Positions 4,904-37,455 of a stretch of DNA of 40,073 nucleotides are shown here, piece by piece. Numbering within the stretch: position 1 is the stretch's first letter; every line of letters starts with the position of its first letter. The position numbers and the translations under genes are program-made. The notes beneath the pieces are model-generated. The model did no database searches and was not told the DNA's origin. It worked only from the letters and a program-made list of their open reading frames with translations. Source of the stretch: Treponema sp. (GTDB lineage Bacteria; Spirochaetota; Spirochaetia; Treponematales; Breznakiellaceae); NCBI GenBank assembly GCA_031256635.1, contig JAIRQF010000012.1, positions 1 through 40,073 on the forward strand. The letters are read 5' to 3'.

Positions 4904-5566
4904 TTATCTGAAAAAATGAAATTTTCCGAATTTATGAAGCTTGCCGTTTGAGCCTTTTTTTATTTCTTCCAGCGACTTGAATATATATGCCGCAAAGGCC
5001 GCTTCATTGCCGGCGTCTGTTGTGTAGAATCCCATGGTTATATACGGCTCATTGCCGGCGGCCGCCAGAAGGCCGCCTGTAAATGCGCGGAATGACGCAA
5101 GCGCTGAAGGGCCGAGTATATCGATTATGTCATCCTTTCCGGTACCCGCGATATCGGGATATACAAGCGCTAAAGTCCCGTGTTTGCGTATTCTGAAAAG
5201 AACGGCCAATTCCTTTACAAGGAAAAACCACCCTTTTATCTGGTCGTTAATCATCAAATCCACATCAGACAGGGAGAGGTCTGCCGCGCTGTTTCGGATT
5301 GAAGGAGGCGAGCAAATTAGAATCGCTTCGTCAATGCGTTCAAGCCGGTTTTCTGCGGCAATCGCAAGCGTCCGCGCTGAAATAGGGCTTGACGGATTCC
5401 ACTCCAGAGGAAGCCGCCCTGTCTCCTGAGACTGATTTTTTGCCGTACCGGAAATTCTGTTCGGTATTATCGCGGAAGCGAACTGCTCCACTCTTTTAAT
5501 CGTCTCGGTTTCAATTGCCCGGCTGAGAGCGCAGTCATTTCCCGCTATAAGGATTCCCCTTGTCAT
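4904..5566 (-). CDS. Degenerate short-chain-dehydrogenase-like protein, 220 aa
   Basis: The start is set at the ATG at 5566; a longer open frame runs into the divergent YmdB gene and is not likely real. The order of segments follows an SDR Rossmann fold: a first strand ILIAGNDCALSR in place of the glycine-rich loop, a middle strand DEAILICSPPS where NNAG would be, a helix IKGWFFLVKELAVLF, then GTLALVYPD. The catalytic Tyr-x3-Lys motif is not evident where expected, and the glycine motif is weak. Enzymatic activity is therefore doubtful and the function is unknown. It is divergent from the YmdB-like gene, and both appear to start at their first transcribed base. Confidence 0.6.
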   Translation of the reverse strand: MTRGILIAGNDCALSRAIETETIKRVEQFASAIIPNRISGTAKNQSQETGRLPLEWNPSSPISARTLAIAAENRLERIDEAILICSPPSIRNSAADLSLSDVDLMINDQIKGWFFLVKELAVLFRIRKHGTLALVYPDIAGTGKDDIIDILGPSALASFRAFTGGLLAAAGNEPYITMGFYTTDAGNEAAFAAYIFKSLEEIKKGSNGKLHKFGKFHFFR

Positions 5567-5572
5567 AAATTT

Positions 5573-5601
5573 AGTGTATATGCAAAGTCTGTTTCTATCA
5601 A
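5573..5601 (-). promoter_or_regulatory. Promoter for the SDR-like gene, +1 at the ATG
   Basis: TTGATA, 17-nt spacer, TACACT. The -10 ends 6 nt before the ATG at 5566. Confidence 0.6.
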
Positions 5602-5606
5602 TACTA

Positions 5607-5635
5607 ATGACAGGCGTCTTATTACTTGTTATATT
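5607..5635 (+). promoter_or_regulatory. Promoter for the YmdB-like gene, +1 at the ATG
   Basis: ATGACA, 17-nt spacer, TATATT, then 6 nt to the ATG at 5642. No Shine-Dalgarno. Confidence 0.6.
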
Positions 5636-5641
5636 TTTTAA

Positions 5642-6448
5642 ATGAATATAGTAAAAATAGCGATGATTGGCGACGTAGTGGGATCTTTCGGACTTGAAAC
5701 ACTGGAAGCCAAACTGCCCGCCATGATAAAAGATCACGGCATCGATTTTGTTACCGTTAACGGAGAGAACGCGGCGCAGGGTTTTGGCATGTCGGAGAGC
5801 GATTATAAACGCATCATCGCGGCCGGAGCCGATGTTGTTACTTCCGGCAATCATGTCTGGGAAAAACGCGAATTCTGGACCGTTCTTGATAACGAAAAAA
5901 ACATGCTGCGCCCCGCGAATTATTCTTCCGGCTCACAGGTTTCAGGAAAGGGATTTATCAGTTTAATTAAAAAAGGAATTAACTGGGCAGTTATAAATCT
6001 TCAGGGACGTGAATCCATGAACGCCATTGACTGCCCTTTTAAATGTTTCGATAATTTTTTTAATGAATTTAAGGAAAACTCACCGGATGCTTTTCCCGTC
6101 TCACCTGTTATTTTGATCGACTTCCATGCTGAATCCGGCCGTGAAAAAGAAGCTCTTGCCTATTTCGCGGACGGCCGCGCTTCTGTAATAGCTGGTACGC
6201 ACACTCACGTACAAACCGCGGATGAAAGATTACTGCCGGGAGGCAGCGCTTATATTACCGACCTTGGTATGACCGGAAATATAGACAGCGTAATAGGGAT
6301 GGAACCGCAAATCTGTCTGGATCGTGTCCATAAACAGGTACTGTATCACATGGAAACAGCGGTTCCCAAAAACCCCGGTCATATGCAGGGAATAATCGCA
6401 GAAATTGATGCAGACACTGGAAAGGCGGTTTCGATTAATCGTATTTAA
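5642..6448 (+). CDS. TIGR00282-family metallophosphoesterase (YmdB-like)
   Basis: The protein has 268 residues, the usual length for the family. The metal-binding motifs are in order: GDVVGSFG (8-15 region), NGENAAQGFG, SGNHVWEK, a DFHAE segment and AGTHTHVQTADE. The family are dinuclear-metal phosphodiesterases; Bacillus YmdB hydrolyses 2',3'-cyclic nucleotides. The spirochaete substrate is not known. No Shine-Dalgarno sequence precedes the ATG, and a promoter places +1 on the ATG itself. It converges with the GerMN gene, with only 28 nt between the stops. Confidence 0.93.
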   Translation: MNIVKIAMIGDVVGSFGLETLEAKLPAMIKDHGIDFVTVNGENAAQGFGMSESDYKRIIAAGADVVTSGNHVWEKREFWTVLDNEKNMLRPANYSSGSQVSGKGFISLIKKGINWAVINLQGRESMNAIDCPFKCFDNFFNEFKENSPDAFPVSPVILIDFHAESGREKEALAYFADGRASVIAGTHTHVQTADERLLPGGSAYITDLGMTGNIDSVIGMEPQICLDRVHKQVLYHMETAVPKNPGHMQGIIAEIDADTGKAVSINRI

Positions 6449-6476
6449 TGTCCGCACTAAACCGCGTCTTTTATTA

Positions 6477-7259
6477 TTAAAATAACTGTCTGTTTATCGG
6501 GCTGCCGATCCATATACCTTCGGCAAGGTAATCAACTCTCCTGCTTTCGATCAGTACCTGCACATCACTTACATTTGAAAACTCTGTTACAGTCCATACA
6601 ATTTGCCGCAACTGCGCGACATAACCTTCAACGCCGAAAGTGTTAAACATAAAATCTTCGCTGAAATTAATATAAGCTGTGTTTCCGCGGACTGTCGCCG
6701 ATATTATTCTTGTATTCCGGGGAATGAGGTTGATTATTCCCTTTGCAAGTTCATCTGCGGAAGGGCCTGTAAGCAGGGCGTTCAGGGCGTCCATCATCGG
6801 CGATTCTGAAACAGGGAGCCTGCGCGTTACGCTGGACTGAAGAATTTGTCCGTCACTGCTGATATGAGTAAAGTAGATTGTTCTGTCCCTTGTTTGTACA
6901 GGAGCAGGTGTTTGCGGCTGAGGTTGTGTCTGTGAACCTGGCTGTGATTCAATCCGCGTATCAGGTGAAGATTCCGGTGTTTGTGTTCTTGTCTGCGGTT
7001 CTGCCGCAATTACTTCAGGCTGCTTTTCATTCTGATCTCCGACAATTGTTACAATCAGCTCTTCATCAGTCATCAGCAATTCTTCCTGCGCGCCGGACGC
7101 GGATGTTAGTCGATTTTTAAACAGATTGAAATTTGTCTGAATGGTTTGCGCGTTAAACATAAAAACGCTGATAATCACAATTATAAAAATAAGCCAGAAG
7201 ATGACTGTCGCCTGGGATCCTTTGTCGCTGTTATTTTTGTTTTTATTTCTGACTGCCAC
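6477..7259 (-). CDS. Membrane-anchored GerMN-domain protein
   Basis: The protein has 260 residues: a short basic N-terminus, one membrane helix (about 18-37), a low-complexity Gln/Pro/Thr-rich linker (about 80-125), and a C-terminal GerMN domain (about 125-260) with ALLTGPSADELAKG and TAYINFSEDFMF. GerMN domains occur in envelope proteins linked to the cell wall, but the spirochaete role is not defined. The linker would place the domain away from the membrane in the periplasm. The start is a GTG at 7259. A near-consensus promoter puts +1 on that G, and no Shine-Dalgarno sequence is visible. Confidence 0.85.
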   Translation of the reverse strand: MAVRNKNKNNSDKGSQATVIFWLIFIIVIISVFMFNAQTIQTNFNLFKNRLTSASGAQEELLMTDEELIVTIVGDQNEKQPEVIAAEPQTRTQTPESSPDTRIESQPGSQTQPQPQTPAPVQTRDRTIYFTHISSDGQILQSSVTRRLPVSESPMMDALNALLTGPSADELAKGIINLIPRNTRIISATVRGNTAYINFSEDFMFNTFGVEGYVAQLRQIVWTVTEFSNVSDVQVLIESRRVDYLAEGIWIGSPINRQLF

Positions 7260-7265
7260 AAAAAC

Positions 7266-7294
7266 ATGATACAGCCTATGTATGCCAATGTCAA
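7266..7294 (-). promoter_or_regulatory. Promoter for the GerMN gene, +1 at a GTG start
   Basis: Exact TTGACA, 17-nt spacer, TATCAT, then 6 nt to the GTG at 7259. Confidence 0.7.
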
Positions 7295-7344
7295 ATAATC
7301 ACTATAATCACGGAAGTATGTACAACCGCGTTTTTAATATTTCT

Positions 7345-8901
7345 TTACCTGCTGAATAATTTCAATAAATCCGCGAACTTCTTCGCTAACTTTTCATCTG
7401 GCATTTCACATAACCGCCATGACCAGTTATCACTGGTACATGTCGACGGAATATTGAACCTTGCTTCTGCGCCAAGACCCAGTAAGTCCTGCATCGGGAA
7501 AATAGCGTACTGCGCATGAGATGAGACAACAGCGCGAATCATTGCCCAGGCGATACCGGAAGGTGTAGTACTTTCGGCGCAGTTTAAGTAAGAGGCGGCA
7601 AGCTGCCTGTCTTCATTTTTCATGCTGACGTACCATCCTGCGGCAGTGTTGTTGTCGTGAGTGCCTGAGTAGGCAACCCATGGGTAACTGTAATTATGAG
7701 GGAGAAACAAATGCCTTGCGTCAAGAACGCCGTTTTTCATATCTTCGAAACCGAACTGGCAAACTTTCATTCCGGGAAAGCCAAGGTCATTTCTCAGCTT
7801 GATTACGCTCTCTGTTAAAAATCCCAAATCTTCGGCAAGAACGGGGAGTTTACCGAGTTTTTTTTCAAGCGCGTTAAATAAGTCAACGCCCGGGCCTTTT
7901 TCCCATGTACCGTGTTCCGCCGTAGGATTACCGGCCGGAATTGACCAGTATTCGTCAAAGCCGCGGAAATGATCGATGCGGAATAAATCAACCTGCGAAA
8001 GAAGCCGCTTAATTCGATCTACCCACCAGCTGTAACCATCTGCTTTCATTTTATCCCAGTCATATACAGGATTACCCCAAAGTTGGCCTGTCGCGCTGAA
8101 GTAATCAGGCGGCACTCCGGAGACAAATGTATAATTACCGCTTTTATCTGTTTTAAAAAGGTCAATCCGGCTCCATGAATCAGCGCTGTCCTGGGAGGCG
8201 AAAATCGGGATATCTCCGATAATACGAATCCCCTTGCTGTTCACATAAGCCTTTAATTCCTGCCACTGACATTCAAAAAAATACTGGAATATTTTCCAGT
8301 CAAGTACTTCCGCCGTGTATTCCCTGTTGATTTTATCAAGCGCTTCTTTTTCACGTTTTGAAATTGCCTTGTCCCAGACGGTATGCCAGCGCGCGTCGTA
8401 GTATTTTTCGCACATAACTTGAAAAATCGCGTAATCATCCAGCCAATGGGATTCCTTGCTACAGAAAGTTTTAAAACCGGAATTATTCGATCCCTTTACT
8501 GCGAATCTGCGCGCCGCTTTTTTTAACAGCGGATACTTTACTTTTTCCGTAAGGCCAAAATCCACGCGGTTAATACCGTTCTCTTTTGTTTGTCCGGCTT
8601 GCGATACTTCCGCTTCCTCAAGTAATCCTTCCCTGACCAGAATATCCGGAGATATTAATAATTCATTCCCGGCAAATGATGAACGGGCGGCATACGGAGA
8701 GTTTCCGTATCCTGTCGGTCCGAGAGGAAGTATCTGCCACAGTTTAACTCCGGCATTTTCAAGGAAATCCGCGAATGAGTGAGCCTCTTTTCCAAGGTCT
8801 CCGATTCCGTAAGGGCCCGGTAAGGAAGTAAGATGGAGGAGTATGCCCGCATAACGGGGACGGTATTCGTACATCGGATTTTGTACTGTTGTATCGCTCA
8901 T
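7345..8901 (-). CDS. malQ: 4-alpha-glucanotransferase (amylomaltase)
   Basis: This is a GH77 enzyme of 518 residues that transfers alpha-1,4-glucan segments between malto-oligosaccharides in the cytoplasm. Recognised motifs are LTSLPGPYGIGDLG near the N-terminus, WGNPVYDW, the nucleophile region FRIDHFRGFDEYW, the acid/base region AEDLGF and SGTHDNNTAAGW. The start is set at the ATG at 8901 rather than a longer frame from 8937, because a promoter overlapping this spot ends one base from it and the extra residues would run into the divergent methyltransferase gene. Only 28 nt separate the two start codons. Confidence 0.95.
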   Translation of the reverse strand: MSDTTVQNPMYEYRPRYAGILLHLTSLPGPYGIGDLGKEAHSFADFLENAGVKLWQILPLGPTGYGNSPYAARSSFAGNELLISPDILVREGLLEEAEVSQAGQTKENGINRVDFGLTEKVKYPLLKKAARRFAVKGSNNSGFKTFCSKESHWLDDYAIFQVMCEKYYDARWHTVWDKAISKREKEALDKINREYTAEVLDWKIFQYFFECQWQELKAYVNSKGIRIIGDIPIFASQDSADSWSRIDLFKTDKSGNYTFVSGVPPDYFSATGQLWGNPVYDWDKMKADGYSWWVDRIKRLLSQVDLFRIDHFRGFDEYWSIPAGNPTAEHGTWEKGPGVDLFNALEKKLGKLPVLAEDLGFLTESVIKLRNDLGFPGMKVCQFGFEDMKNGVLDARHLFLPHNYSYPWVAYSGTHDNNTAAGWYVSMKNEDRQLAASYLNCAESTTPSGIAWAMIRAVVSSHAQYAIFPMQDLLGLGAEARFNIPSTCTSDNWSWRLCEMPDEKLAKKFADLLKLFSR

Positions 8902-8918
8902 TTTTATTATTGTATACT
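8889..8918 (+). promoter_or_regulatory. Promoter for the SPOUT methyltransferase, leader about 5 nt
   Basis: TTGTAT, 18-nt spacer, TATACT (8913-8918). Its -10 overlaps the -10 of malQ on the other strand at a shared GTATAC. Confidence 0.55.
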
Positions 8919-8937
8919 GACTTGATACCATGCGCAA
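8909..8937 (-). promoter_or_regulatory. Promoter for malQ, near-leaderless
   Basis: TTGCGC, 17-nt spacer, TACAAT ending 7 nt before the ATG at 8901. Its -35 lies inside the first codons of the divergent gene. Confidence 0.5.
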
Positions 8938-9724
8938 TAAATTAACCGATGAACTTGCTGTCTGCGGAATGAACGCAGTGCTGGCTGCCAGCGAGCATCA
9001 TCCATTAACGATCAACCGGCTTTTTCTTCGCGAAGATCGTCTTAATTCCTTTACAGGAATCTGCAAACAGCTCGCCGAACGAAAGCGTCCATATAAAATC
9101 TGCGAAGATGAAGAGCTTGAGCGTATCTGTAAAAGCGTGCACCATCAGGGTGTTGTCGCGATGATAGAAGAGCCTATTATTGATCCGCTGAGTCTTGATG
9201 ATTTTGATCTTTGGGCAGCTGAAGGAAAGACCGGCGTTATTCTACATTCTGTAGGAAACGATCACAATCTCGGCGCTATCGCAAGAGCGGCCGCTTTCTT
9301 TGATGTTTCTTTTATCGTGCTGAATGAAAAGGATTCTTTATTTGACGAGGAAATGCGCCTTACTACCAGCGCCTACCGTGTCGCGGAAGGCGCGTTTGAA
9401 CATTTAACAGTCCGGCGTATCAAAAGTACAGCGTCTTTTTTAAGAGATGCGGTAAAACGGATTGTTACGATAGGCACAGATACAAGAGCAAGAATGCGCA
9501 TCGGTGATTTGGAAGGTATCGTTAATTCTCCTAAAATGAAGAAGTTAAGGCAGACAGGCCGGCCCGGTATCGCCCTTGTTCTTGGCAGCGAAGAAACCGG
9601 CCTGCCCAAAGAGGTTAAAGATCAATGCTCATGCCTTTTGCGTATTCCCGGCACCGGCAACATAGACAGCCTGAATGTGTCGCAGGCGGCGGCTTTATTC
9701 TTACACGCGGTTTACGAATTATAG
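8930..9724 (+). CDS. SPOUT-family TrmH/RlmB-type RNA 2'-O-methyltransferase
   Basis: The protein has 264 residues. The N-terminal 90 or so form a substrate-binding domain, followed by the knotted SpoU domain with the three family motifs: NDHNLGAIARAA, LVLGSEETGLPKEV and RIPGTGNIDSLNVSQAAALFL. The family methylates a ribose 2'-OH in tRNA or rRNA using S-adenosylmethionine; which position is modified cannot be read from the sequence. The gene is divergent from malQ and converges with the phosphofructokinase gene, with 9 nt between stops. Confidence 0.92.
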   Translation: MRNKLTDELAVCGMNAVLAASEHHPLTINRLFLREDRLNSFTGICKQLAERKRPYKICEDEELERICKSVHHQGVVAMIEEPIIDPLSLDDFDLWAAEGKTGVILHSVGNDHNLGAIARAAAFFDVSFIVLNEKDSLFDEEMRLTTSAYRVAEGAFEHLTVRRIKSTASFLRDAVKRIVTIGTDTRARMRIGDLEGIVNSPKMKKLRQTGRPGIALVLGSEETGLPKEVKDQCSCLLRIPGTGNIDSLNVSQAAALFLHAVYEL

Positions 9725-11578: not shown

Positions 11579-12259
11579 CTATTTAGAATAATTACTAGAT
11601 ATAAACACAGAAAATTCACCGATTTGTTCGTTTTTTTTCCCAATTTCTTCAAGCACTTCCGCCGCGCTGCCCCTTAAATATTCCTCATGAATCTTGGTCA
11701 TTTCCCGCCCAAGACATATATAACGCTCTCTGTCAATTTCGGCAATGTCGCCCAGCAGCTTTAGAATCCGGAAAGGCGATTCGTAAAGAACAAAGGCGGC
11801 GTCCATAGCCATTAATTCGCGAAGCCGGCTCTTTCTCCTGCCCGGTTTTGGGGACAGAAAACCTTCAAAAATAACGGTTTTATCCCTGCCGCCTGAAACG
11901 CTTAAAAGGGAAGCAAAAGCCGAAGGCCCCGGAATTGGAATTACGTCATGTCCGGCTTTTGCGGCTGCTCTTACAAGTACGGCGCCGGGATCGCTTAGGG
12001 AAGGAGTGCCGGCATCGCTTGCATAAGCGACAATTTTCCCCTGATTAAGAATATTTATCACTTTTTCCGCCGCAATTTGCTCATTTTGGGAGCGGCAGGA
12101 AAGCATTTTAACGCGAATACCCAAATGGGAAAGAAGCTTCATTGTACGGCGGGTATCTTCGCATGCTACAAGATCGGCGTTTTTTAAAATTTCAACCGCG
12201 CGGAAACTTATGTCGCCTAAATTGCCAATCGGTGTAGCAATGATATAAAGAGTGGACAT
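11579..12259 (-). CDS. rsmI: 16S rRNA (cytidine-1402 2'-O)-methyltransferase
   Basis: The protein has 226 residues, a little shorter than the E. coli enzyme, and belongs to the tetrapyrrole-methylase-like fold. Family motifs are ATPIGNLGDISFRAVE, the ACEDTRRT segment, ASDAGTPSLSDPG and IPGPSAF. It modifies C1402 in the ribosomal decoding centre. Its own promoter has TATTAT placed 6 nt before the ATG, so a leaderless message is predicted. Confidence 0.96.
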   Translation of the reverse strand: MSTLYIIATPIGNLGDISFRAVEILKNADLVACEDTRRTMKLLSHLGIRVKMLSCRSQNEQIAAEKVINILNQGKIVAYASDAGTPSLSDPGAVLVRAAAKAGHDVIPIPGPSAFASLLSVSGGRDKTVIFEGFLSPKPGRRKSRLRELMAMDAAFVLYESPFRILKLLGDIAEIDRERYICLGREMTKIHEEYLRGSAAEVLEEIGKKNEQIGEFSVFISSNYSK

Positions 12260-12265
12260 TTCTCA

Positions 12266-12271
12266 ATAATA
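12266..12271 (-). promoter_or_regulatory. -10 box for rsmI, +1 at the ATG
   Basis: TATTAT with 6 nt to the ATG at 12259. The -35 (TAGTAT at 17 nt) is weak. Confidence 0.45.
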
Positions 12272-15302: not shown

Positions 15303-16558
15303 GATAACCTCGTTCCTTCGAATTCCGCAGGGAAAAGTTTCCATGCGCTGTTCAACGCGACAGCGGCGCTTTGGCCAAGTCCGCAGAAGGAAGCGTCTGT
15401 CATTGTCCGGATAAGGCGGCGCATTGTGTCAAGGTCGCCGGTTTTTGCGGTACCTTCTGATATTTTATTCAGGATTTTTAAAAGCTGACGGTTTCCCTCG
15501 CGGCAGGGCATACACTTGCCGCAGGATTCGTGAATAAAGAATTCTGTAACGCCTTTTAAATAATTGATAACAGAGACGCTTTCATCCATCACAACGATGG
15601 CTCCCGATCCGACAGCAAGACCGGCTTTTTTTAAATCCGTGTAGCTGTAAACTGTATCAAGCTGATCGACGCTTCCGATTGGGCCGCTCTGCCCTCCAAG
15701 ATGATAAAACTTGAGTTTTTTGTTAGCTGCAATTCCGCCGCCGATTTCCGGATCATAAATCGCCTCCCGAAGCGTAACGCTTCCAAGCGGCACTTCGTAA
15801 ACACCCTTTTTTTTACAATGTCCCGAAAGGCAGATAAGCTTGCTTCCTCCTGAATCAGGATGCCCTGCCCGCAGGTAAGCGTCCCCTCCCATGTTAATGA
15901 TGAGCGGAATATTGGCGAATGATTCTACATTGTTCACCAGAGTCGGATGCAGGAAAAGACCCACTTCCGCAAGATGCGGCGGTTTAATGCGCGGGCGTCC
16001 TACTTTACCCTCTGTTGAGTTTAAAAGAGCGGAGTTCTCGCCGCAGACATACGCGCCTGCTCCCGATATTACATGGATATCAAAATCGAAACCGGAGCCC
16101 GCTATATTTTTACCGAGGTATCCCGCGGCATGTAGGTTTTCAATCGCCAAACCAAGACGGCGCTGCAGCTTGCGATATTCGCCGCGGACATAAATGTGGC
16201 CTGAGTCCGCGTGGAAAACAAACCCCGCAATGATAATGCCTTCCAGTAATTTAAGTGGCAGCAAATCCATAATAAGCCGGTCTTTAAAAGTGCCGGGCTC
16301 CCCCTCATCGGCATTGCAGACAATGTATTTTGGAGTTTCGCTTATGTGTAAAAGATGCTCCCATTTTTTTCCGGCAGGGTAAGCGGCTCCTCCGCGTCCG
16401 AGAAGCTGCGCTTTTTTAATTTCCACGATTATTTCCTCAGGAGAGCTTGCGATTGTTTTTCTAAGCGCGGTAAAACCGCCGTTTTTTTCATATTCGCTTG
16501 CAATGAGCGAGTATGCGCGGTCAGCTCCGCCTGTAAGCATATTTGTTAGTTTTGACAT
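15299..16558 (-). CDS. nuoF: NuoF/HydB-type NADH-binding flavin iron-sulfur subunit
   Basis: The protein has 419 residues, the length of a plain NuoF, without the N-terminal thioredoxin-like and C-terminal ferredoxin extensions of bifurcating HydB. The NADH/FMN motifs are GRGGAAYPAGKKW, CNADEGEPGTFKDR and GAGAYVCGENSALL. The [4Fe-4S] site is ESCGKCMPCREG plus a later Cys in ASFCGLG. It would pass electrons from NADH through FMN to the HydA-like subunit. It overlaps the NuoE-like gene by 13 nt and has AAGGG before its ATG. It lies outside any complex I cluster. Confidence 0.93.
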   Translation of the reverse strand: MSKLTNMLTGGADRAYSLIASEYEKNGGFTALRKTIASSPEEIIVEIKKAQLLGRGGAAYPAGKKWEHLLHISETPKYIVCNADEGEPGTFKDRLIMDLLPLKLLEGIIIAGFVFHADSGHIYVRGEYRKLQRRLGLAIENLHAAGYLGKNIAGSGFDFDIHVISGAGAYVCGENSALLNSTEGKVGRPRIKPPHLAEVGLFLHPTLVNNVESFANIPLIINMGGDAYLRAGHPDSGGSKLICLSGHCKKKGVYEVPLGSVTLREAIYDPEIGGGIAANKKLKFYHLGGQSGPIGSVDQLDTVYSYTDLKKAGLAVGSGAIVVMDESVSVINYLKGVTEFFIHESCGKCMPCREGNRQLLKILNKISEGTAKTGDLDTMRRLIRTMTDASFCGLGQSAAVALNSAWKLFPAEFEGTRLS

Positions 16559-17076
16559 AACGCCCTTAACTCATATCTGTTGCCGGTAAGACAGTGTTTA
16601 ACCAGCGTTTTTGCTTTTTCTTCGTTCAAACTACCGAACACGTCATCGCCGATTTTCGCAACCGGGCCTATATCGCACATACCTACACAGCTTGTATATA
16701 AAATTGATAATTTTCCGTCGGCTGTTGTTTCGCCGATTTTAATGCCTGCCGCATCTTCAAACCAGCGTACAACTTCCTGAGTGCCGTGACAGCCTTCCTC
16801 ATTTTGACACGCAAACCAGCAGGGAGTGCTGCGGCAAATTTCGATGATAAACTCGCCGTGCGGCTCAGTTTTAAACATGGAATAAAAAGTCAGTACATCA
16901 TAAATTTTCGACAGCGGAACGCCCAAAACTTCCGAGGTAAGCTCAGCCCAATGCTGCTCAACGCAGAATTTTCCCGACGCGGCCTGTATATCCAGCAAAA
17001 CAGCTATTAACTGCTGAGGATCGTTGCCGTATCTTTCCATTATTCTAAGCATTTGATTTTTGTTCAGACTTTGCAT
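16546..17076 (-). CDS. nuoE: NuoE/HydC-type [2Fe-2S] subunit
   Basis: The protein has 176 residues with a thioredoxin-like fold. It carries the four-Cys [2Fe-2S] pattern: Cys in CRSTPC, later TSCVGMC. It is the first gene of the minus-strand operon NuoE - NuoF - HydA-like - antiporter. A promoter TTGTAA-N17-TAAACT puts +1 on its ATG. Such a three-subunit set resembles NADH-linked [FeFe]-hydrogenases in gut treponemes and clostridia, but see the HydA-like entry for the missing active-site residues. Confidence 0.92.
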   Translation of the reverse strand: MQSLNKNQMLRIMERYGNDPQQLIAVLLDIQAASGKFCVEQHWAELTSEVLGVPLSKIYDVLTFYSMFKTEPHGEFIIEICRSTPCWFACQNEEGCHGTQEVVRWFEDAAGIKIGETTADGKLSILYTSCVGMCDIGPVAKIGDDVFGSLNEEKAKTLVKHCLTGNRYELRALCQN

Positions 17077-17082
17077 TATTTT

Positions 17083-17111
17083 AGTTTACGGGGATTTTTG
17101 TCTTTTTACAA
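17083..17111 (-). promoter_or_regulatory. Promoter of the NuoE-NuoF-HydA-like operon, +1 at the ATG
   Basis: TTGTAA, 17-nt spacer, TAAACT, then 6 nt to the ATG at 17076. Confidence 0.55.
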
Positions 17112-20131: not shown

Positions 20132-20161
20132 CTGTCACCCTGTCTAATTATCTGCTATACT
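20132..20161 (+). promoter_or_regulatory. Extended -10 promoter of pepT, +1 at the ATG
   Basis: CTGTCA, 18-nt spacer, TGC-TATACT, then 6 nt to the ATG at 20168. No Shine-Dalgarno. Confidence 0.6.
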
Positions 20162-20167
20162 ATCCCA

Positions 20168-21406
20168 ATGGAAAACCAACAACTGGAAAAATTGATTGTT
20201 CCGCGGTTTATGAATTATGTCCGTTATGACACAGAAAGCAACCGCCATATTGAAAAAACTCCTTCAACGCCAGGGCAGCGGGTGCTTGCGGACGCTTTAC
20301 GCGATGAGCTGTTTGCGCTGGGACTTGAGGATGTAAATGTAGTTGAGCCATGTTATGTGACAGCCCGCCTGCCCGCAAGCCCCGGAAAAGAAAATAAACA
20401 GTGTATCGGGTTTCTTGCCCATCTTGATACGGCAAGCGATGTTTCGGGAAAAGATGTAAAGCCGCAGCTTGTGCAGAATTACAACGGCGGAAAAATCGAG
20501 CTTGCGGGCAGTTTATGCCTTGACCCGGCGGCGGAGCCTGATTTGGCAGCTCATAAAGGAAAGTCTATTATTCACAGCGACGGGACGACTTTGCTTGGAG
20601 CGGATAATAAAGCGGGTATTGCCGAGATTATGGGTGCGGTTGAATACCTCATCGCCAATCCGCAAATTACACACGGGCCTGTAGAAATTATTTTTACTCC
20701 CGATGAGGAAACCGGAAAAGGACTGCCTGATTTTCCCCTTGAATGGCTTAAGTCCGCCTATTGCTACACAGTGGACGGCGGCCCTGCGGGTGAGATTGAA
20801 AGCGAGTGTTTTAACGCATGGCAGGCAAGTATTGATTTTCTTGGTAAGGTTATACATGTCGGGCGGGCTAGGGGAATCCTCGCGAATGCGGCACTTATGG
20901 CATCCACATTTGCCACTCTTCTACCGCGCAGCGAGAGCCCGGAAGCTACAGATGGCTATTACGGTTACTACTGCCCGATGGAAATATCAGGCGATTTGGA
21001 AAAAGCTTCGCTTGATATCTTTCTGCGCGACTTTGACTCGGACAGCATGGAAAAGAGAATTACAGCGCTGAAACATTTCGCGAAAACAGTGGAAGCCCAG
21101 TTTCCGGGCGGGAAAGTAATTGTTAATTTACAGCCGCAATATTATAATATGAAACTTAAGATAGATGAAAAACCTGAAGTTTTAAATCAGCTTAAGAAAG
21201 CGGCGCAGAACATCGGTATTGAATGGAGTCTAAAGCCGATACGCGGCGGAACTGACGGTTCCCGCTTAACTGAGCTTGGCATACCGACGCCGAACATTTT
21301 TACAGGCGGACGCAATTTTCACAGCCGTCTTGAATGGGTCAGCGTAAGCGAAATGTGCATTGCCTGTGAATTGATCATAGAGTTAATCAGGCTTTGCGGA
21401 GAATAA
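20168..21406 (+). CDS. pepT: Peptidase T (tripeptide aminopeptidase)
   Basis: The protein has 412 residues, the standard length, and is an M20B zinc aminopeptidase that removes the N-terminal residue of tripeptides in the cytoplasm. Seen are YDTES near the start, the zinc ligand region LAHLDTASDV, GADNKAGIAEIM, TPDEETGKG with the catalytic Glu, VDGGPAGEIE, and GGTDGSRLTELGIPTPNIFTGG. The extended -10 TGCTATACT ends so that +1 is the A of the ATG. The acyltransferase gene follows after 1 nt. Confidence 0.96.
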   Translation: MENQQLEKLIVPRFMNYVRYDTESNRHIEKTPSTPGQRVLADALRDELFALGLEDVNVVEPCYVTARLPASPGKENKQCIGFLAHLDTASDVSGKDVKPQLVQNYNGGKIELAGSLCLDPAAEPDLAAHKGKSIIHSDGTTLLGADNKAGIAEIMGAVEYLIANPQITHGPVEIIFTPDEETGKGLPDFPLEWLKSAYCYTVDGGPAGEIESECFNAWQASIDFLGKVIHVGRARGILANAALMASTFATLLPRSESPEATDGYYGYYCPMEISGDLEKASLDIFLRDFDSDSMEKRITALKHFAKTVEAQFPGGKVIVNLQPQYYNMKLKIDEKPEVLNQLKKAAQNIGIEWSLKPIRGGTDGSRLTELGIPTPNIFTGGRNFHSRLEWVSVSEMCIACELIIELIRLCGE

Positions 21407-24598: not shown

Positions 24599-25333
24599 TC
24601 AAGGGTTTGCAGGAGAAGGGGTTTTTCGCGGTGTTATGCGAAAACCAAGTCCGAAACGCCATCCGTCAATTTTAATGAATTCTTCATTTGTCCATAATTT
24701 GTAAACGGGAACCCATACACGGAAATCAAAACCGAGTGAAAATTTACGGTTTACAGGAAAATCCGCGCCAATACCGGCTGTCGGAATAAACCAGCGCCCT
24801 TTACTCCAGAAATATTTTCGAATGGCGTCTGTCTGTATCTGCGCGTCTCTTTCATCACCCTGAAAATCCGCAGGATGTTTTAAGCCGAAAGCAAGAGTTA
24901 CGACGCGGAGATCAATGGCCGGGCCTATGCTAAAACGCCCGGCGAAACCGGCGCTGCCAATGGGAATAAACGCTGTTAGCTGAATCCCTGTTAAAAAACC
25001 CAGTACAAACGCGGAGCGGTTTTCCGGATTACAGGCCATTGGATAACCCAGTTCTGTATTATACTCATAATTTGTAAAATAGATATCTTCGGTTATTTCA
25101 ATCCGTAAAGGGCCCCAAAACTGCCATGCAAACGACGCTCCCAATGAAGGCAGTATGGGAGCGGGATCCGAGTCTACGCCGTTATTTGCGGCGATATGGA
25201 AAAGGCTGCCCATAACCGCCCAATGAAAGTTATCTTTGAATGATTGCGCGTTAAGCGTTAAAAAAGGGATAATAAAAAGCAAAACAAGAACAGCCGGTTT
25301 AATGCCTTTTTTTCGCAGACAAACAGCATGCAT
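24599..25333 (-). CDS. Putative secreted outer-membrane beta-barrel-like protein
   Basis: The protein has 244 residues with an N-terminal signal (basic residues, hydrophobic stretch about 12-28, LNAQ cleavage-like end). The rest has alternating aromatic/glycine strands (LGASFAWQFWGPLRIEI, RFSIGPAIDLRVV, FSLGFDFRVWVPVYKLW, WRFGLGFRI), as in outer-membrane barrels. No family is recognised. Its promoter TTGCTT-N17-TATAAT puts +1 on the ATG. Confidence 0.7.
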   Translation of the reverse strand: MHAVCLRKKGIKPAVLVLLFIIPFLTLNAQSFKDNFHWAVMGSLFHIAANNGVDSDPAPILPSLGASFAWQFWGPLRIEITEDIYFTNYEYNTELGYPMACNPENRSAFVLGFLTGIQLTAFIPIGSAGFAGRFSIGPAIDLRVVTLAFGLKHPADFQGDERDAQIQTDAIRKYFWSKGRWFIPTAGIGADFPVNRKFSLGFDFRVWVPVYKLWTNEEFIKIDGWRFGLGFRITPRKTPSPANP

Positions 25334-25339
25334 ACATCA

Positions 25340-25368
25340 ATTATATCCCAATAAAGACAGCGAAGCAA
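25340..25368 (-). promoter_or_regulatory. Promoter of the outer-membrane-like gene and radA, +1 at the ATG
   Basis: TTGCTT, 17-nt spacer, exact TATAAT, then 6 nt to the ATG at 25333. Confidence 0.65.
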
Positions 25369-26753: not shown

Positions 26754-26759
26754 TATAAT
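26754..26759 (+). promoter_or_regulatory. -10 box of the THUMP methyltransferase gene, +1 at the ATG
   Basis: Exact TATAAT with 6 nt to the ATG at 26766, in the 17-nt gap after the HD-GYP gene. No good -35. Confidence 0.45.
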
Positions 26760-26765
26760 GAATAT

Positions 26766-28013
26766 ATGGAAAATCTTTTTACCGCAGCCGCTCTTTGCGC
26801 GGTTGGTGCTGAAAAAGCTGTATCAAATGAACTGCGAAAACTGGCTGATCCTAAAAATGAAGCTCCGGATATAAAAATTGAAGAGTCTTTGTATGGCAGG
26901 GTGCGTTTTAAAACAAATATCCGCGGTCTTTATAAAGCGTTAATTGGTTTACGCGCGGCTGATCGTGTTCTTCTGGAAGCCGCGGTATTCAAAGCGGATA
27001 ATTTTGACGATCTTTTTGAAGGGACAGCGGCAACTGCCTGGGAGCGAATTATTCCGAAAGGCATGGGTTTGAAAATCGCCAAGGTTCGTTCAAACCGGTC
27101 TTTGCTTAAGGCGGAAACCAGTATTCAGGCAATTGTTCATAAAGCCGCGGCTCAGCGGCTTTGCGATAAATATAAAATGAACCGTCTTCCGGAACCTGTG
27201 ATGATACCGCGAGGCAAAGACGATGTTAAAGCTGACCCTGTTAAAATTGCTGAAGTGCGCGTATACATTGAAAAAGACATCGTTTCACTGCTTGTGGATT
27301 TAAGCGGTGATCCGCTGTTCAAGCGCGGTTACCGCAGCGAGGGCGGCGCGGCGCCGTTACGCGAAACAACCGCCGCGTCATTGCTGCTTCTTTCAGGCTG
27401 GAAGCGCAAGTTTCCCCTTTACGATCCTTTCTGCGGATCGGGTACCATTCTTATTGAAGCCGCCATGTATGCGTGGGATATTGCGCCCGGCCTTGGCAGG
27501 CGTTTTGCGCTTGAGCATTTGCTTATAGCAGACAGTAAAACCGAACAAACAGTAAGGGATAAATTCCGCGGTAAAATTGATTTTAGCCGCCTTGTTCGAA
27601 TTACAGGAAGCGATGAAGACCTTCGCTCTGTTTCCATCGCTTCTTCCAATGTTGCGCGCCTTCATGATATCGCCGAAGGAAGGGAGCCGCAGCGTGGAAT
27701 ACGTTCATTAAACCCTGATTCTGCGGGAATTGATTTAAAAGTTCTTTCAATGAAGGAAGCCGCTGCTCCGTTTTCCGAAGCGGGATTTTTAGTGACAAAT
27801 CCGCCGTATGGAAAAAGACTCGGAGATCAAATCAAGGCGGAAGAGATTTACAGGGAAATGGCAGGTTTTACCCTGCGCTTTCCGGGCTGGAAACTTGTTT
27901 TGATTACGGATCACAGCGGATTTGAATCTTTTTTCGGTAAAAAAGCGGATTCCTGCCGTGAAATAAGTAATGGCGCTGTTCCCTCCTGTTTTTTTCAATA
28001 TGAATTTTTATAA
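26766..28013 (+). CDS. THUMP-domain class I RNA methyltransferase (RlmL N-terminal/YpsC type)
   Basis: The protein has 415 residues: an N-terminal ferredoxin-like plus THUMP domain (about 1-165) and a Rossmann methyltransferase domain with DPFCGSGTILIEAA for S-adenosylmethionine and TNPPYGKRL as the N6/N2 methylation motif. Relatives make m2G in 23S rRNA. TATAAT ends 6 nt before the ATG, so the message may be leaderless, although the -35 is weak. Confidence 0.92.
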   Translation: MENLFTAAALCAVGAEKAVSNELRKLADPKNEAPDIKIEESLYGRVRFKTNIRGLYKALIGLRAADRVLLEAAVFKADNFDDLFEGTAATAWERIIPKGMGLKIAKVRSNRSLLKAETSIQAIVHKAAAQRLCDKYKMNRLPEPVMIPRGKDDVKADPVKIAEVRVYIEKDIVSLLVDLSGDPLFKRGYRSEGGAAPLRETTAASLLLLSGWKRKFPLYDPFCGSGTILIEAAMYAWDIAPGLGRRFALEHLLIADSKTEQTVRDKFRGKIDFSRLVRITGSDEDLRSVSIASSNVARLHDIAEGREPQRGIRSLNPDSAGIDLKVLSMKEAAAPFSEAGFLVTNPPYGKRLGDQIKAEEIYREMAGFTLRFPGWKLVLITDHSGFESFFGKKADSCREISNGAVPSCFFQYEFL

Positions 28014-32134: not shown

Positions 32135-32163
32135 TTGAATTTTTCTGTTTTAAAGATAATACT
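32135..32163 (+). promoter_or_regulatory. Weak promoter of the small membrane protein pair
   Basis: TTGAAT, 17-nt spacer, AATACT, 6 nt to the ATG at 32170. GATAAT at 32155-32160 is an alternative -10. Confidence 0.35.
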
Positions 32164-32169
32164 GTTTTC

Positions 32170-32472
32170 ATGGATGCGGGACAGGCCGTATTAATTTCCA
32201 GCCATCTTGTTTTTGGCGCTGCCGCCGCGTTTTTGGCCATATTATTATGGCCAAAAATCAGAGACAGCGCGTGGATGCTGATTATTTTTGGAGTTATCGT
32301 CGCTTACATTGAAACAGTATATTCTGTTTTAAAAATATTTGGCATTGCCGGCAATGAATTGATTATATTCAGCACTGTTTCTTTGGTATCGTTTATTCTG
32401 CCAGTGGTGCGGATGTCATTTTTTATCGCCGCGCTGGCGATTATGGTATATAGACAATCCCGGCTGAAATAA
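32170..32472 (+). CDS. Small three-helix membrane protein, uncharacterised
   Basis: The protein has 100 residues with three or four hydrophobic segments (about 6-26, 34-54, 63-93) and a short basic C-terminus. No family is recognised. It lies 27 nt upstream of another small membrane protein in the same direction, and an internal Glu-Thr-Val-Tyr in helix 2 is its only polar spot. A weak promoter TTGAAT-N17-AATACT puts +1 at the ATG. Confidence 0.65.
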   Translation: MDAGQAVLISSHLVFGAAAAFLAILLWPKIRDSAWMLIIFGVIVAYIETVYSVLKIFGIAGNELIIFSTVSLVSFILPVVRMSFFIAALAIMVYRQSRLK

Positions 32473-32742: not shown

Positions 32743-32744
32743 TC

Positions 32745-32781
32745 GAAAAAAAATACGCGGTGTTTTAGGCACCTGTCCGCG
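32745..32781 (-). terminator. Terminator of the pfkB-proA-proB operon
   Basis: On the minus strand CGCGG...CCGCG pairs, with a possible inner CACC/GGTG, followed by TATTTTTTTT. It lies just after the proB stop. Confidence 0.6.
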
Positions 32782-32804
32782 CGCAATTTATTCAGGTAAC
32801 AATC

Positions 32805-33593: not shown

Positions 33594-34855
33594 TCTCTTA
33601 TCTGACCATTGCCTGTTATAAGATACTTTATTGTTGTAAGCGCCTGAAGTCCCATCGGCCCTCTTGCGTGAAATTTTTGGGTGCTGATTCCAAGCTCCGC
33701 GCCGAATCCAAACTGACCGCCGTCTGTAAAACGCGTCGATGTGTTAACATAAACGCAGGCTGCGTCCACGCGGGAACGGAATTCCTGTGCCGCCTTAAGA
33801 TCATTTGTAAGTATTGCCTCCGAGTGTTTTGTTCCGTATTTGTTGATGTGAGCGATTGCCTCATCGCGGGAAGATACTGTCTTTACCGCGAGGATATAAT
33901 CAAGAAATTCAGTTTCCCAGTCTTCTTCAGCCGCGTCTTTTAAAACAAGCGCGGAAGGAAGTTTACCTGTCGCCGCCTTTGAGTCAGAGTCGCATCGCAG
34001 CTCGGATTTTCCGGCAATTTTTTCCGCCAGCAAAGGCATCAGTTTATTTACAATATCTTTATGCACGAGTATTGTTTCCACCGCGTTGCATGCTCCGGGT
34101 TTTTGCAATTTTGCGTTTAAAATAATTTCGATTGCGTTATCAATATCAGCGGTTGGTTCAATATAAATATGACAGTTTCCTTCGCCTGTTTCGATGACAG
34201 GAACCCGCGCGTTTTCAACCACACGGCGTATCAATTCATGTCCTCCGCGCGGAAGCACAGCGTCAATGTAGCCGCGCGCTTTGAGTATTTCATCAACTTC
34301 GTCTCTGCTGCCGGACTGCGCCAGTTCAACGGCGTCCGCTGTTCCGCCGCTGTTTGAAAGCCCAGTCTTGATCGCTTTTACCAGCGCAATGTTTGATTTA
34401 AGCGCGGATGAAGAGCCGCGTAAAAGAATTGAGCAGCCGGCTTTGTAAGCAAGAGCGGCGCAGTCCGCTGTAACATTCGGGCGTGATTCATAAATGATTG
34501 CCGTAACTCCGACAGGCACAGTTATCTTTTCTATATGTAAACCGTTCGCAAGCGTCCAGCCGGCTTGTACACTGCCGATTGGGTCTTCCTGCCTGATTAC
34601 GATTTTAATTCCTTCGATTATTTCGTCTATTCTTTTATCATTCAATAGCAAACGATCTATCAGGCTTTCTTTCATTCCGTTTTTACGCGCCTGCTCCACA
34701 TCGCTCAAGTTCGCTTCAAGAATTGCAATTCTGTCTTTATCAATTTCAGCGGCCGCGGCGGCAAGAGCTTTGTCCTTGTCAGCGCGGTTCTGCAACGCTA
34801 GCTTCGCCTGTGCTTCTTTTAATGAGATGAAAATTTTTTCTAATGAGGCGGACAT
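33590..34855 (-). CDS. proA: Glutamate-5-semialdehyde dehydrogenase
   Basis: The protein has 421 residues, the full length for the family, and reduces gamma-glutamyl phosphate with NADPH to the semialdehyde. Motifs are PVGVTAIIYESRPNVTAD, RGSSSALKSN, VIETGEGNCHIY with KPGACNAVET around the catalytic Cys, and DGGQFGFGAELGISTQK. It follows the PfkB gene by 9 nt and overlaps proB. Confidence 0.97.
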   Translation of the reverse strand: MSASLEKIFISLKEAQAKLALQNRADKDKALAAAAAEIDKDRIAILEANLSDVEQARKNGMKESLIDRLLLNDKRIDEIIEGIKIVIRQEDPIGSVQAGWTLANGLHIEKITVPVGVTAIIYESRPNVTADCAALAYKAGCSILLRGSSSALKSNIALVKAIKTGLSNSGGTADAVELAQSGSRDEVDEILKARGYIDAVLPRGGHELIRRVVENARVPVIETGEGNCHIYIEPTADIDNAIEIILNAKLQKPGACNAVETILVHKDIVNKLMPLLAEKIAGKSELRCDSDSKAATGKLPSALVLKDAAEEDWETEFLDYILAVKTVSSRDEAIAHINKYGTKHSEAILTNDLKAAQEFRSRVDAACVYVNTSTRFTDGGQFGFGAELGISTQKFHARGPMGLQALTTIKYLITGNGQIRE

Positions 34856-34864
34856 ATGATTACT

Positions 34865-35731
34865 TTAATAAATAACTCCCGGTTTTTCCAGTCCCGCGTT
34901 CAGCGCGCCGCAGCGAATTCCTTCGTTTATCGCAGTGTTAAAATCGACGCCGTTTTCTAAAGCAGCTGCAAGTCCTGCCGTAAACGCGTCTCCGCAACCT
35001 GTTGTGTTAACCGCTTTTACAGCCGGAACAGCTGTTTCAAAATATTTATTTTCAGCGGCAGTGATTATATTTTTGCTGCCATTTGTTAATATTATACGGC
35101 ATTTGTATTTTCGCGAAATTTCAATCAACATTTCTTTTTCAGGTTCAGTTTTAAAAGTTGCGGTAAACTCTTCAAGGTTCGGCTTTATTACATCAGGCTC
35201 ATATTTTAAACATTCCATTAAATCATTGCCTTTTATATCCAATATAACGCGTATGCCTTTTTCTTTAGCTTTTTCGGTCATGCCGGGAAAAATCATACCG
35301 GAAAAACCTGCCGCCTTTGTGCCTGATATAATTAAACACTTTACATCCGCAAGAAGCGCATCGAATTTTTCAAGCAGCCGCATTTCGGTTTCAGAGGCAA
35401 CCGGCTCTGATTCTTCAACCAGCTCTGTAACGCTATTGTCATGCTCATTTAATATCGTATAACAAAAACGGATTTGACTTCCGCTTTCCGCCCAATGGAC
35501 AGAAAGTTTATCCTTCTCACATAACGACAGAAACAGCGGCTTCATGTCACCGCCAAGCTGCGTTAGGTGCGCAGCTTTTTTTTCAAGCTGAGTTAAAACG
35601 CGGGTAACATTAATCCCTTTACCGCTTACATCAAGGCGGTGAAAAGCGGTGCGGTTTACCGCCCCGGAAATAATTGACGGAAAGCGGAGCGTTTTTTGAA
35701 TAGTAGGGTTAAGGCAGACGGTAAGGAACAT
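34865..35731 (-). CDS. PfkB-family hexose-phosphate kinase (1-phosphofructokinase/tagatose-6-phosphate kinase type)
   Basis: The protein has 288 residues. Motifs are VCLNPTIQKTLRF, GKGINVTRVL, VIKPNLEEF and the C-terminal NTTGCGDAFTAGLAAA with the catalytic Asp. The family phosphorylates fructose 1-phosphate or tagatose 6-phosphate; the substrate is not decided. No fructose PTS gene is next to it. It sits between two tiny membrane ORFs and proA in one apparent operon. Confidence 0.87.
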   Translation of the reverse strand: MFLTVCLNPTIQKTLRFPSIISGAVNRTAFHRLDVSGKGINVTRVLTQLEKKAAHLTQLGGDMKPLFLSLCEKDKLSVHWAESGSQIRFCYTILNEHDNSVTELVEESEPVASETEMRLLEKFDALLADVKCLIISGTKAAGFSGMIFPGMTEKAKEKGIRVILDIKGNDLMECLKYEPDVIKPNLEEFTATFKTEPEKEMLIEISRKYKCRIILTNGSKNIITAAENKYFETAVPAVKAVNTTGCGDAFTAGLAAALENGVDFNTAINEGIRCGALNAGLEKPGVIY

Positions 35732-35754
35732 AATTTTAAAAAAAGTTATAAATA

Positions 35755-35853
35755 TTAACGATCCTTAAGCTTTCTTCCAATATAAAAAAGTAAACCGCTG
35801 CAAAATAATAAAGCAATAGATAAAACAAGTCTCCAAATTATATTTTCATCCAT
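35755..35853 (-). CDS. Tiny single-helix membrane protein, 32 aa
   Basis: The peptide begins MDENIIWRLVLSIALLF and ends in GRKLKDR: one hydrophobic helix with a basic tail. An AGGAGG Shine-Dalgarno lies 9 nt before the ATG, inside the last codons of the 56-aa ORF. A nearer ATG at 35858 leads to a very short peptide. The gene falls 5 nt after that ORF and 23 nt before the PfkB gene. Confidence 0.55.
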   Translation of the reverse strand: MDENIIWRLVLSIALLFCSGLLFYIGRKLKDR

Positions 35854-35858
35854 GGCAT

Positions 35859-36029
35859 TTATCCTCCTAACCATGTTCTGATTGTCTCAATAATTGCAAT
35901 GATACCTAAAATACCAACTCCTGTTGCTGAACCATCCACAATTCTTTTTATCAATGACGGTTCCTTATTAGCTCTTTCCAAAAGCATAATAATCCTGTCA
36001 AGCTTCTCATATAGAACCTTCTCGTCCAT
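35859..36029 (-). CDS. Small membrane protein, 56 aa, first gene of a pfkB-proA-proB operon
   Basis: The ORF has a charged amphipathic N-terminal helix (KVLYEKLDRIIMLLERANKE), a short basic linker, then a hydrophobic helix (about 36-53). Its promoter TTGAAA-N17-TATTAT puts +1 on the ATG. No family is recognised; the layout recalls small holin-like or regulatory membrane peptides, which is only a guess. Confidence 0.6.
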   Translation of the reverse strand: MDEKVLYEKLDRIIMLLERANKEPSLIKRIVDGSATGVGILGIIAIIETIRTWLGG

Positions 36030-36035
36030 ACATTT

Positions 36036-36064
36036 ATAATACTACTCCAACTTCTGTCTTTCAA
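36036..36064 (-). promoter_or_regulatory. Promoter of the 56-aa ORF and pfkB-proA-proB, +1 at the ATG
   Basis: TTGAAA, 17-nt spacer, TATTAT, then 6 nt to the ATG at 36029. Confidence 0.65.
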
Positions 36065-36066
36065 GT

Positions 36067-37455
36067 TTATTTAATACGCTTATACGACTTTATCTCCTGC
36101 CGCAGCCTTACTGCCAGTTCCGCTCTTGGCACTCTTACCTGTTCCATTGAGTCGCGGAAACGTAATGTTACAGTACCGTCTTCTTTTGACTGGTAATCCA
36201 CAGTGATACAGAATGGAGTGCCGGCTTCATCCTGCCTGCGGTAGCGCCGTCCAATCGCTCCTGATTGATCGTAGTCTGTTGCATAATCGTCCTGCAGCTC
36301 CTTGCGGATATCCTGCGCCATTTCCGCAAGACCGTCTTTTTTCATCAGCGGCAAAATCGCGGCGGTTACAGGCGCGAGATCGGGATGAAAACGGAGAACG
36401 GTTCTCCAATCATCTGCGGAACCTTCGGTTCCGGCATTGCCTTTTTCGGCGACCTGTTCTTCATCGTAGGCGTCGCAGAGGATCATTAATACGTTACGCG
36501 TAAGACCAGCGGATGTTTCGATGATATAGGGAATGTAGCGTTCGTTATTGTTATCCTGATCAATGTACTGCATGTCCTTGCCGGAGAATTGCGCGTGACG
36601 GCCGAGATCGTAGTCGGTGCGGTTGTGTACGCCTTCAAGTTCGCGCCAGCCCATCGGGAAAAGGTACTCAATATCGTAGGCGTCTTTGGCGTAATGCGCG
36701 AGTTCGTCTTTCCCGTGCTGATGCCAGCGCAGGTGATCCATTTTAACGCCCAGTTTTTTATAATATGCCCAGCGCTGTCTGCGCCACTCATTAAACCATT
36801 CTTCGTCAGTTCCCGGTTTTACAAAGTACTGCATTTCCATCTGCTCAAATTCGCATGTGCGGAAAATAAAATTTTTGGTAACAATTTCGTTACGGAAAGC
36901 CTTGCCAATCTGCGCGATGCCGAACGGGATTTTCATTCTGTTGGATTGGATTATGTTTTTATAATTTACATATATTCCCTGAGCGGTTTCAGGGCGAAGG
37001 TAGATAACGCTCGCTGTATCTTCGGCAGGGCCGATGTGGCTTTTGAACATCAAATTAAATTTGCGCGTATCGGTAAGTTCACCGCCGCAGTCCGGGCATT
37101 TTTTTGCGGAAAGATTTTCCTCTGGGATCATGTCCGCGCGGAAACGGGACTTGCACTTTTTGCAATAGACGAGCGGGTCGGTACAATTTTCCACATGCCA
37201 TGACGCTTCCCATGTTCTGGGATGCATTAAAATTGCCGCGTCCAAACCGGCGATATTATCGTGAAGGCGAGTCATCTCCTTCCACCACGCGCCTGCGATA
37301 CGGTTCTTTAATTCTATACCCAGAGGGCCGTAATCCCACGCGCCGTTCTGACCTCCGTAAATTTCCGATGACTGAAAAACAAAACCTCTCCTTTTTGCAA
37401 GCGAGGTAATTTTTTCCATTGTAGCTTTTCCGCCATATTCCTGTAATTCTGACAT
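36067..37455 (-). CDS. glyS: Glycyl-tRNA synthetase, single-chain (alpha2) type
   Basis: The protein has 462 residues of the eukaryote/archaeal-like class II form rather than the alpha2beta2 form. It starts RRGFVFQSSEIYGGQNGAWDYGPLG, has a zinc-like CKKC...CPDC pair near 100-120, motif 2 around FGIAQIGKAFRNEI and motif 3 at the C-terminal catalytic part. The first ATG (37455) lies at the predicted +1 of TTAACA-N16-TACAAT. An internal ATG at residue 13 begins the part usual for homologues and may be an alternative start. Confidence 0.96.
   Translation of the reverse strand: MSELQEYGGKATMEKITSLAKRRGFVFQSSEIYGGQNGAWDYGPLGIELKNRIAGAWWKEMTRLHDNIAGLDAAILMHPRTWEASWHVENCTDPLVYCKKCKSRFRADMIPEENLSAKKCPDCGGELTDTRKFNLMFKSHIGPAEDTASVIYLRPETAQGIYVNYKNIIQSNRMKIPFGIAQIGKAFRNEIVTKNFIFRTCEFEQMEMQYFVKPGTDEEWFNEWRRQRWAYYKKLGVKMDHLRWHQHGKDELAHYAKDAYDIEYLFPMGWRELEGVHNRTDYDLGRHAQFSGKDMQYIDQDNNNERYIPYIIETSAGLTRNVLMILCDAYDEEQVAEKGNAGTEGSADDWRTVLRFHPDLAPVTAAILPLMKKDGLAEMAQDIRKELQDDYATDYDQSGAIGRRYRRQDEAGTPFCITVDYQSKEDGTVTLRFRDSMEQVRVPRAELAVRLRQEIKSYKRIK

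Follow-up and report, generated by a model that had tools for sequence, protein, structure and literature searches.

Do genes of a Treponema sp. begin their mRNAs on the start codon itself? The question is raised by the window, the whole 40,073-nucleotide (nt) stretch analysed here, which is contig C142 (JAIRQF010000012.1) of a genome of 2,479,563 bases in 189 contigs (GCA_031256635.1). An earlier note on this DNA had pointed to recurring promoters whose -10 hexamer ends exactly 6 nt before a start codon. When the -10 box of a sigma-70-type promoter ends six bases before a start codon, transcription would be expected to begin with that codon's first base. Direct reading found this geometry at all eight strong cases, with spacers of 16–18 nt between the -35 and -10 boxes (Table 1); the hexamers and 17-nt spacers at 5566, 5642, 7259, 17076, 25333 and 36029 are as the note gave them, and the 16-nt and 18-nt spacers at 37455 and 20168 separate TTAACA from TACAAT and CTGTCA from TATACT, respectively. 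We consider it very likely that these are ordinary sigma-70-type promoters set so that position +1 coincides with the initial base of the start codon and that the mRNAs are leaderless, with 5′ ends deduced from the promoters. Ribosomes would presumably bind the 5′-terminal AUG or GUG of such an mRNA and translate it without a Shine–Dalgarno (SD) sequence, by a route running beside the SD route used by many other genes; the point at which transcription begins, the translation that follows and the ribosomal route are all inferred.

Enrichment at gene starts across the genome

The occurrence of this arrangement was assessed in 61 of the 189 contigs (the window and 60 further contigs of the same genome, 714 kb). 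Genes were called by a home-made coding-potential model blind to upstream signals, and a gene was counted as non-operon where it adjoined a divergent gene or a contig edge or stood at least 40 nt from its same-strand neighbour. TANNNT stands at exactly -12 in 37 of 483 genes compared with 15.4 per offset, and in 25 compared with 10.8 among the 268 genes whose neighbour is divergent or distant, for which the mean -35 match is also best at -12 (4.08/6 versus 2.0–3.6 at the nine other offsets examined). A stricter count, allowing alternative starts and requiring a -35 match of at least 4/6, placed a -10 box at -12 in 26 of 320 non-operon genes compared with 5.4 per offset (range 2–9; Poisson tail 1e-10). 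The same pipeline applied to 300 kb of Escherichia coli K-12 returned 0 of 147 genes at -12 (background 0.96). The genome-wide -10 peak at fixed spacing, which the earlier note had proposed to look for, is thus found in the sampled contigs, with E. coli negative.

The genome is AT-rich (GC content 0.42), and AT-rich upstream regions together with a preference for A or T at the start site (+1/+2) could account for frequent TANNNT-N6-ATG sites that have nothing to do with translation. Promoter-like sites followed by a 6-nt spacer and a long-frame ATG number 16 in the own genome, compared with 0–6 at 24 other spacers, while the count of short-frame ATGs at spacer 6 is unremarkable (4, inside the range of 0–11 at other spacers), so the spacer preference is tied to gene starts. 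The relatives have 15 long-frame and 6 short-frame ATGs at spacer 6; at spacer 7 they show a visible initiator effect, with 19 short-frame ATGs and a rise of long-frame ATGs to 11. Despite this effect, initiator preference as the cause is ruled out by the short-frame control, and AT-richness by the position of the peak and by the -35 match. With the E. coli null and the spacing retained by orthologues of several genes (see below), a statistical artefact of this kind seems extremely improbable.

Unconstrained expectation–maximisation kept TATAAT/TTGACA in the own genome (pi 0.105) and TACAAT/TTGACA in relatives' loci chosen for leaderless genes. For the relative G002, Treponema putidum and E. 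coli the method drifted onto the SD sequence and was rejected, and a fixed promoter model was therefore used, with 76 other offsets as nulls. At -12 this model takes in 10.1% of 319 non-operon genes (null maximum 2.0%), a figure to be discounted as in-sample, since the model was trained on the same genome, together with 1.9% of 163 operon-internal genes and 0% of the 147 E. coli genes; small excesses occur at -13 and -11 (1.6% and 2.4% of 319). Such genes are more frequent in the window than elsewhere in the sample (5 of 20 versus 27 of 301 genes), but the idea that the window is a special island was rejected, the genome signal being independent of it. By this model about 10% of non-operon genes would use the leaderless layout, which is widespread but not dominant: the earlier note was right that the layout is widespread, at a frequency that its impression from the window put two to three times too high. 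A strong site lies within 92 nt of the start in 86 genes, at -13 to -11 in 29 of them (about a third); mononucleotide shuffles gave such a site in about 23 genes in all, and at score 5 the real sequence has 20 at -12 versus 0.25 in 20 shuffles.

The 31 genes assigned to the class in the sample comprise 29 with ATG, 2 with GTG and none with TTG starts, compared with 248, 15 and 16, respectively, among 279 clear non-members. The SD search matched none of the 31, an absence that is partly forced because the -10 box at -12 to -7 occupies the SD position and largely excludes it. In a Pfam scan of 20 assigned genes, 15 matched known families, including gyrase/topoisomerase IV subunit A, formate–tetrahydrofolate ligase, penicillin-binding protein and HPr kinase, and of the five that matched none, two lie in the window. 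The assigned genes appear unremarkable and not of a distinct kind. Across the sample, a GGAG, GAGG, AGGA or AAGG core is found upstream of only ~44% of the 483 called genes; by the tests used, many sampled genes fall into neither the SD-led nor the leaderless class, and some starts may be miscalled.

Conservation of the spacing and the two states of glyS

The nearest matches of the glycyl-tRNA synthetase (GlyRS) encoded by glyS in the window are metagenome-assembled genomes (MAGs) titled Treponema sp., which we take from their isolate names to be of termite-gut origin; the first twelve loci are 88–93% identical, and 80 loci from the GlyRS matches were kept for comparison. The -10 box of glyS stands at -12 in 15 of 15 relatives, none with an SD sequence, at a mean pairwise upstream identity of 48%, although these were chosen on the trait itself and are circular as a group. 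An SD sequence precedes glyS in 61 of the 63 other usable relatives, and the box stands at -12 in none of the 63. A quick GlyRS protein tree gave two changes of state on the best tree versus a shuffled mean of 14.8, with the window and 14 leaderless relatives in one fork (86% Shimodaira–Hasegawa-like approximate likelihood ratio test support) that also holds the SD-led L014, and with L065 leaderless alone. Only one change is required by the branches with strong support, and a single origin of leaderless glyS could still account for the pattern. From these sequences glyS appears to have changed between an SD leader and a leaderless start within Treponema relatives, the two states being observed and the direction deduced. 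The glyS of L014 carries TATAAT 19 bases before its ATG, and loss of ~13 leader bases from such a gene would yield the leaderless layout, which we offer only as a suggestion. One MAG (G003) holds two different GlyRS genes, L004 and L013 (92% and 90% identity), and may be a mixed bin or carry two copies.

Upstream regions of orthologues of other genes, named here by their start position (for example g5566), were likewise aligned on start codons. Dropped rows were L017 and L041 for glyS, L274, L277 and L278 for g25333, L245–L262 for nuoE (weak matches) and L212 and L213 for ymdB (distant paralogues); for g5566, g7259, the 36029 small ORF and the 8930, 12259, 25429, 26766 and 32170 starts, protein matches beginning after residue 25 were excluded. 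The -10 box lies at -12 in 10 of 12 relatives for g5566, 9 of 11 for g7259, 10 of 13 usable relatives for g25333 and 12 of 21 for pepT, which has it at -13 or -11 in four more and an SD sequence in three, T. putidum and T. vincentii among them. It also does so in the one relative found for the small open reading frame (ORF) 35859–36029 (L006, 73% identity) and in two of three for the 26766 gene (one also with an SD-like core; the third at -11), while none of the compared loci yielded a relative for the 12259 gene. These alignments suggest that the distance from promoter to start is kept by selection at several, not all, genes. Before the conserved GTG of g7259 (7259–7294), the sequence TATCATnTTTTT is nearly identical in several relatives, beyond promoter needs, and is possibly an operator or start-region signal.

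The alignments also bear on whether the true start codons lie downstream, in which case the boxes would feed ordinary leaders beginning within the presumed coding regions. The coding model did favour downstream ATGs as starts for 17076, 20168 and 7259, which counts against our placement of those starts. However, protein alignments reach residue 1 in 12 of 12 relatives for g5566, 8 of 11 for g7259 and 11 of 21 for pepT, and the GTG of g7259 is kept in eight of the nine relatives with the box, so that we regard misplaced starts as highly unlikely.

Beyond single genes, the fixed model gave values above the null maximum (in brackets) in four sets outside its training: 11.1% of 113 genes in G002 (4.1%), 14.0% of 65 in the glyS loci of the 15 relatives without glyS itself (5.1%), 6.7% of 327 in those of the 65 other relatives (1.9%) and 5.6% of 187 at -12 in stretches of T. 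putidum (3.2%), where -13 reached 4.7%. Counts at -12 compared with the mean background were 7 v 2.4, 6 v 0.9, 13 v 5.0 and 12 v 3.6 in the same order. A pattern search (TTGAC-N16..19-TANNNT-N6-ATG) used N9 in place of N6 as its null, a reversed-pattern null having been set aside as not matched for position. N6 exceeded N9 by 461:154 and 462:178, together 923:332, and was higher in 34 of 34 genomes (the own genome and 33 relatives). Across 110 genomes sampled from the phylum, with the own genome aside, the ratio was 208:63 in eight genomes of the order.

Several results weigh against the leaderless explanation. In the four smaller sets, -12 barely tops the highest other offset (7 v 6 in G002, 12 v 9 in T. 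putidum, 6 v 5 in the loci of the 15 relatives and 13 v 11 in those of the 65 others), and operon-internal genes in the loci of the 15 relatives reach 7.9% of 42 (null maximum 9.0%), giving no contrast there. The exact spacing is not kept at ymdB (2 of 23 relatives at -12, two at -13 and two at -11; CAATAT seen by eye at -12 in some relatives falls outside the counting rule, and nothing is claimed from it), and it is found in one of seven relatives for nuoE (three of seven at -13), one of five for 8930 and none of one for 25429, with the 32170 ORF having a box in one of five, at -11. The N6:N9 ratio is only 77:51 in the class beyond the order, where two of six genomes are reversed, and 2029:1223 in 95 genomes of the rest of the phylum (76 higher, 16 lower, 3 equal), both uncorrected for initiator preference; these excesses are weaker than in the order and we draw little from them.

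Part of this scatter would fit real promoters whose transcripts begin 1–5 nt before the start codon, or just within it, so that a very short leader forms the 5′ end. The small excesses at -13 and -11 in the own genome, the near-equality of -13 and -12 in T. putidum, the nuoE relatives at -13, the rise of long-frame ATGs at spacer 7 in relatives and the 11-nt spacer at 8930 all point that way, while the own-genome peak is sharp at -12 and glyS, g5566, g7259 and g25333 mostly hold exactly -12 despite diverged upstream sequence. We judge such near-leaderless mRNAs unlikely, if less so than either an artefact or misplaced starts. On the leaderless reading, it seems reasonably probable that leaderless initiation is a regular second route in Treponema relatives, with purifying selection on the promoter-to-start distance, that it serves genes of central function (glyS, formate–tetrahydrofolate ligase and a gene of the topoisomerase IV/gyrase A family) and makes up about a third of strong promoter sites within 92 nt of a start, and that it was gained by replacing an SD leader, at glyS twice on the best tree.

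Promoter sites and genes of the window

The gene content of the window includes a TIGR00282 metallophosphoesterase (ymdB-like, here called ymdB), a NuoE-like subunit, pepT, glyS, proA and proB. The weaker cases listed by the earlier note at 12259, 26766 and 32170 have their -10 boxes in place (Table 1), and -10-like boxes are also present at its near cases, 8901 (-), 8930 (+) and 25429 (+), at larger distances from the start (11 nt at 8930). The promoters at 5566 (-) and 5642 (+) overlap and interlock, serving divergent genes 75 bp apart that are both predicted to be leaderless; a comparable divergent pair is found in L119 (7304–8674 on the minus and 8739–9440 on the plus strand). The ORF 35859–36029 falls below the 60-amino-acid limit of the ORF list, and its predicted product is a small protein with a hydrophobic stretch.

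Table 1 Putative leaderless promoters in the window, with box positions in brackets.
Gene	Span	Strand	-35 box	-10 box	Spacer (nt)	Remark
4904–5566	5566..5601	-	TTGATA (5596–5601)	TACACT (5573–5578)	17	expected +1 at A of ATG 5566
TIGR00282-type metallophosphoesterase, 5642–6448	5607..5642	+	ATGACA (5607–5612)	TATATT (5630–5635)	17	
6477–7259	7259..7294	-	TTGACA (7289–7294)	TATCAT (7266–7271)	17	GTG start
NuoE-like subunit, 16546–17076	17076..17111	-	TTGTAA (17106–17111)	TAAACT (17083–17088)	17	
pepT, 20168–21406	20132..20168	+	CTGTCA (20132–20137)	TATACT (20156–20161)	18	
24599–25333	25333..25368	-	TTGCTT (25363–25368)	TATAAT (25340–25345)	17	
small ORF, 35859–36029	36029..36064	-	TTGAAA (36059–36064)	TATTAT (36036–36041)	17	56 codons; coordinates include stop
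glyS (glycyl-tRNA synthetase), 36067–37455	37455..37489	-	TTAACA (37484–37489)	TACAAT (37462–37467)	16	
16S rRNA methyltransferase (TIGR00096), 11579–12259	12259..12271	-		TATTAT (12266–12271)		weaker case
RlmL-like methyltransferase, 26766–28013	26754..26766	+		TATAAT (26754–26759)		weaker case; gene starts 17 nt after preceding gene
100-amino-acid ORF, 32170–32472	32158..32170	+		AATACT (32158–32163)		weaker case

Leaderless initiation in spirochaetes and known systems

Leptospira is a more distant lineage than the Treponema relatives studied here. Neither the mechanism nor the occurrence of leaderless mRNAs in this phylum is new; our additions are the evidence from Treponema relatives, the conservation of the spacing and the two states of glyS. 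The earlier note knew of no description for this group, and a search of titles and abstract openings, with most subscription journals outside its coverage, found no paper on leaderless mRNAs or mapped starts in Treponema; at the level of the phylum that statement has to give way to precedents, mapped in Leptospira interrogans and predicted in 6 of 18 spirochaete genomes, as reported in the accessible texts of the two studies (PMC5243855, PMC3160421). The present data add one more lineage with both leadered and leaderless initiation, and in glyS they offer an essential gene whose change can be traced. The evolution of leaderless starts can therefore be tested one gene at a time among close relatives. 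For annotators of spirochaete genomes, a promoter model is advisable when calling starts.

According to the accessible text of Zheng et al. (2011), TANNNT ~12 bp upstream of the start was read as marking leaderless (TA-led) genes; the positive spirochaetes averaged 3.9% of genes (1.8–6.9), Deinococcus–Thermus reached 39.4%, and the word Treponema is absent from the main text (PMC3160421). A 2017 survey gave six spirochaetes a mean of -3.25 on a component read as leaderless mRNA or ribosomal protein S1, a negative value that implies that the survey, in its accessible text, did not see the leaderless signal in the phylum (PMC5397173). The word leaderless is not used in the accessible portion of a Borrelia transcript-end paper (PMC10319736), and a paper on gene starts cites, in its accessible portion, a prediction that 21.6% of bacterial species use leaderless transcription (PMC9581028).

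In L. interrogans, differential RNA-seq mapped ~440 transcripts with leaders <10 nt, half of those <2 nt, according to the accessible text (PMC5243855). The likeness is that of leaderless mRNAs within one phylum, with the difference that the ends were mapped there and are read from promoters here; the accessible part of that paper reports sigma-54 elements and no other promoter motif (PMC5243855), whereas the boxes found here are TATAAT/TTGACA. Compared with the mean for the TA-led spirochaetes, we find ~10% of non-operon genes, together with conservation and the two glyS states. As far as the available descriptions go, the leaderless transcriptomes of Mycobacterium tuberculosis and Deinococcus–Thermus likewise have the -10 box adjoining the start codon, at a larger share of genes than here, and the high-GC groups show TANNNT with an uninformative middle (PMC3160421), in contrast to the fuller TATAAT with a -35 box found here.

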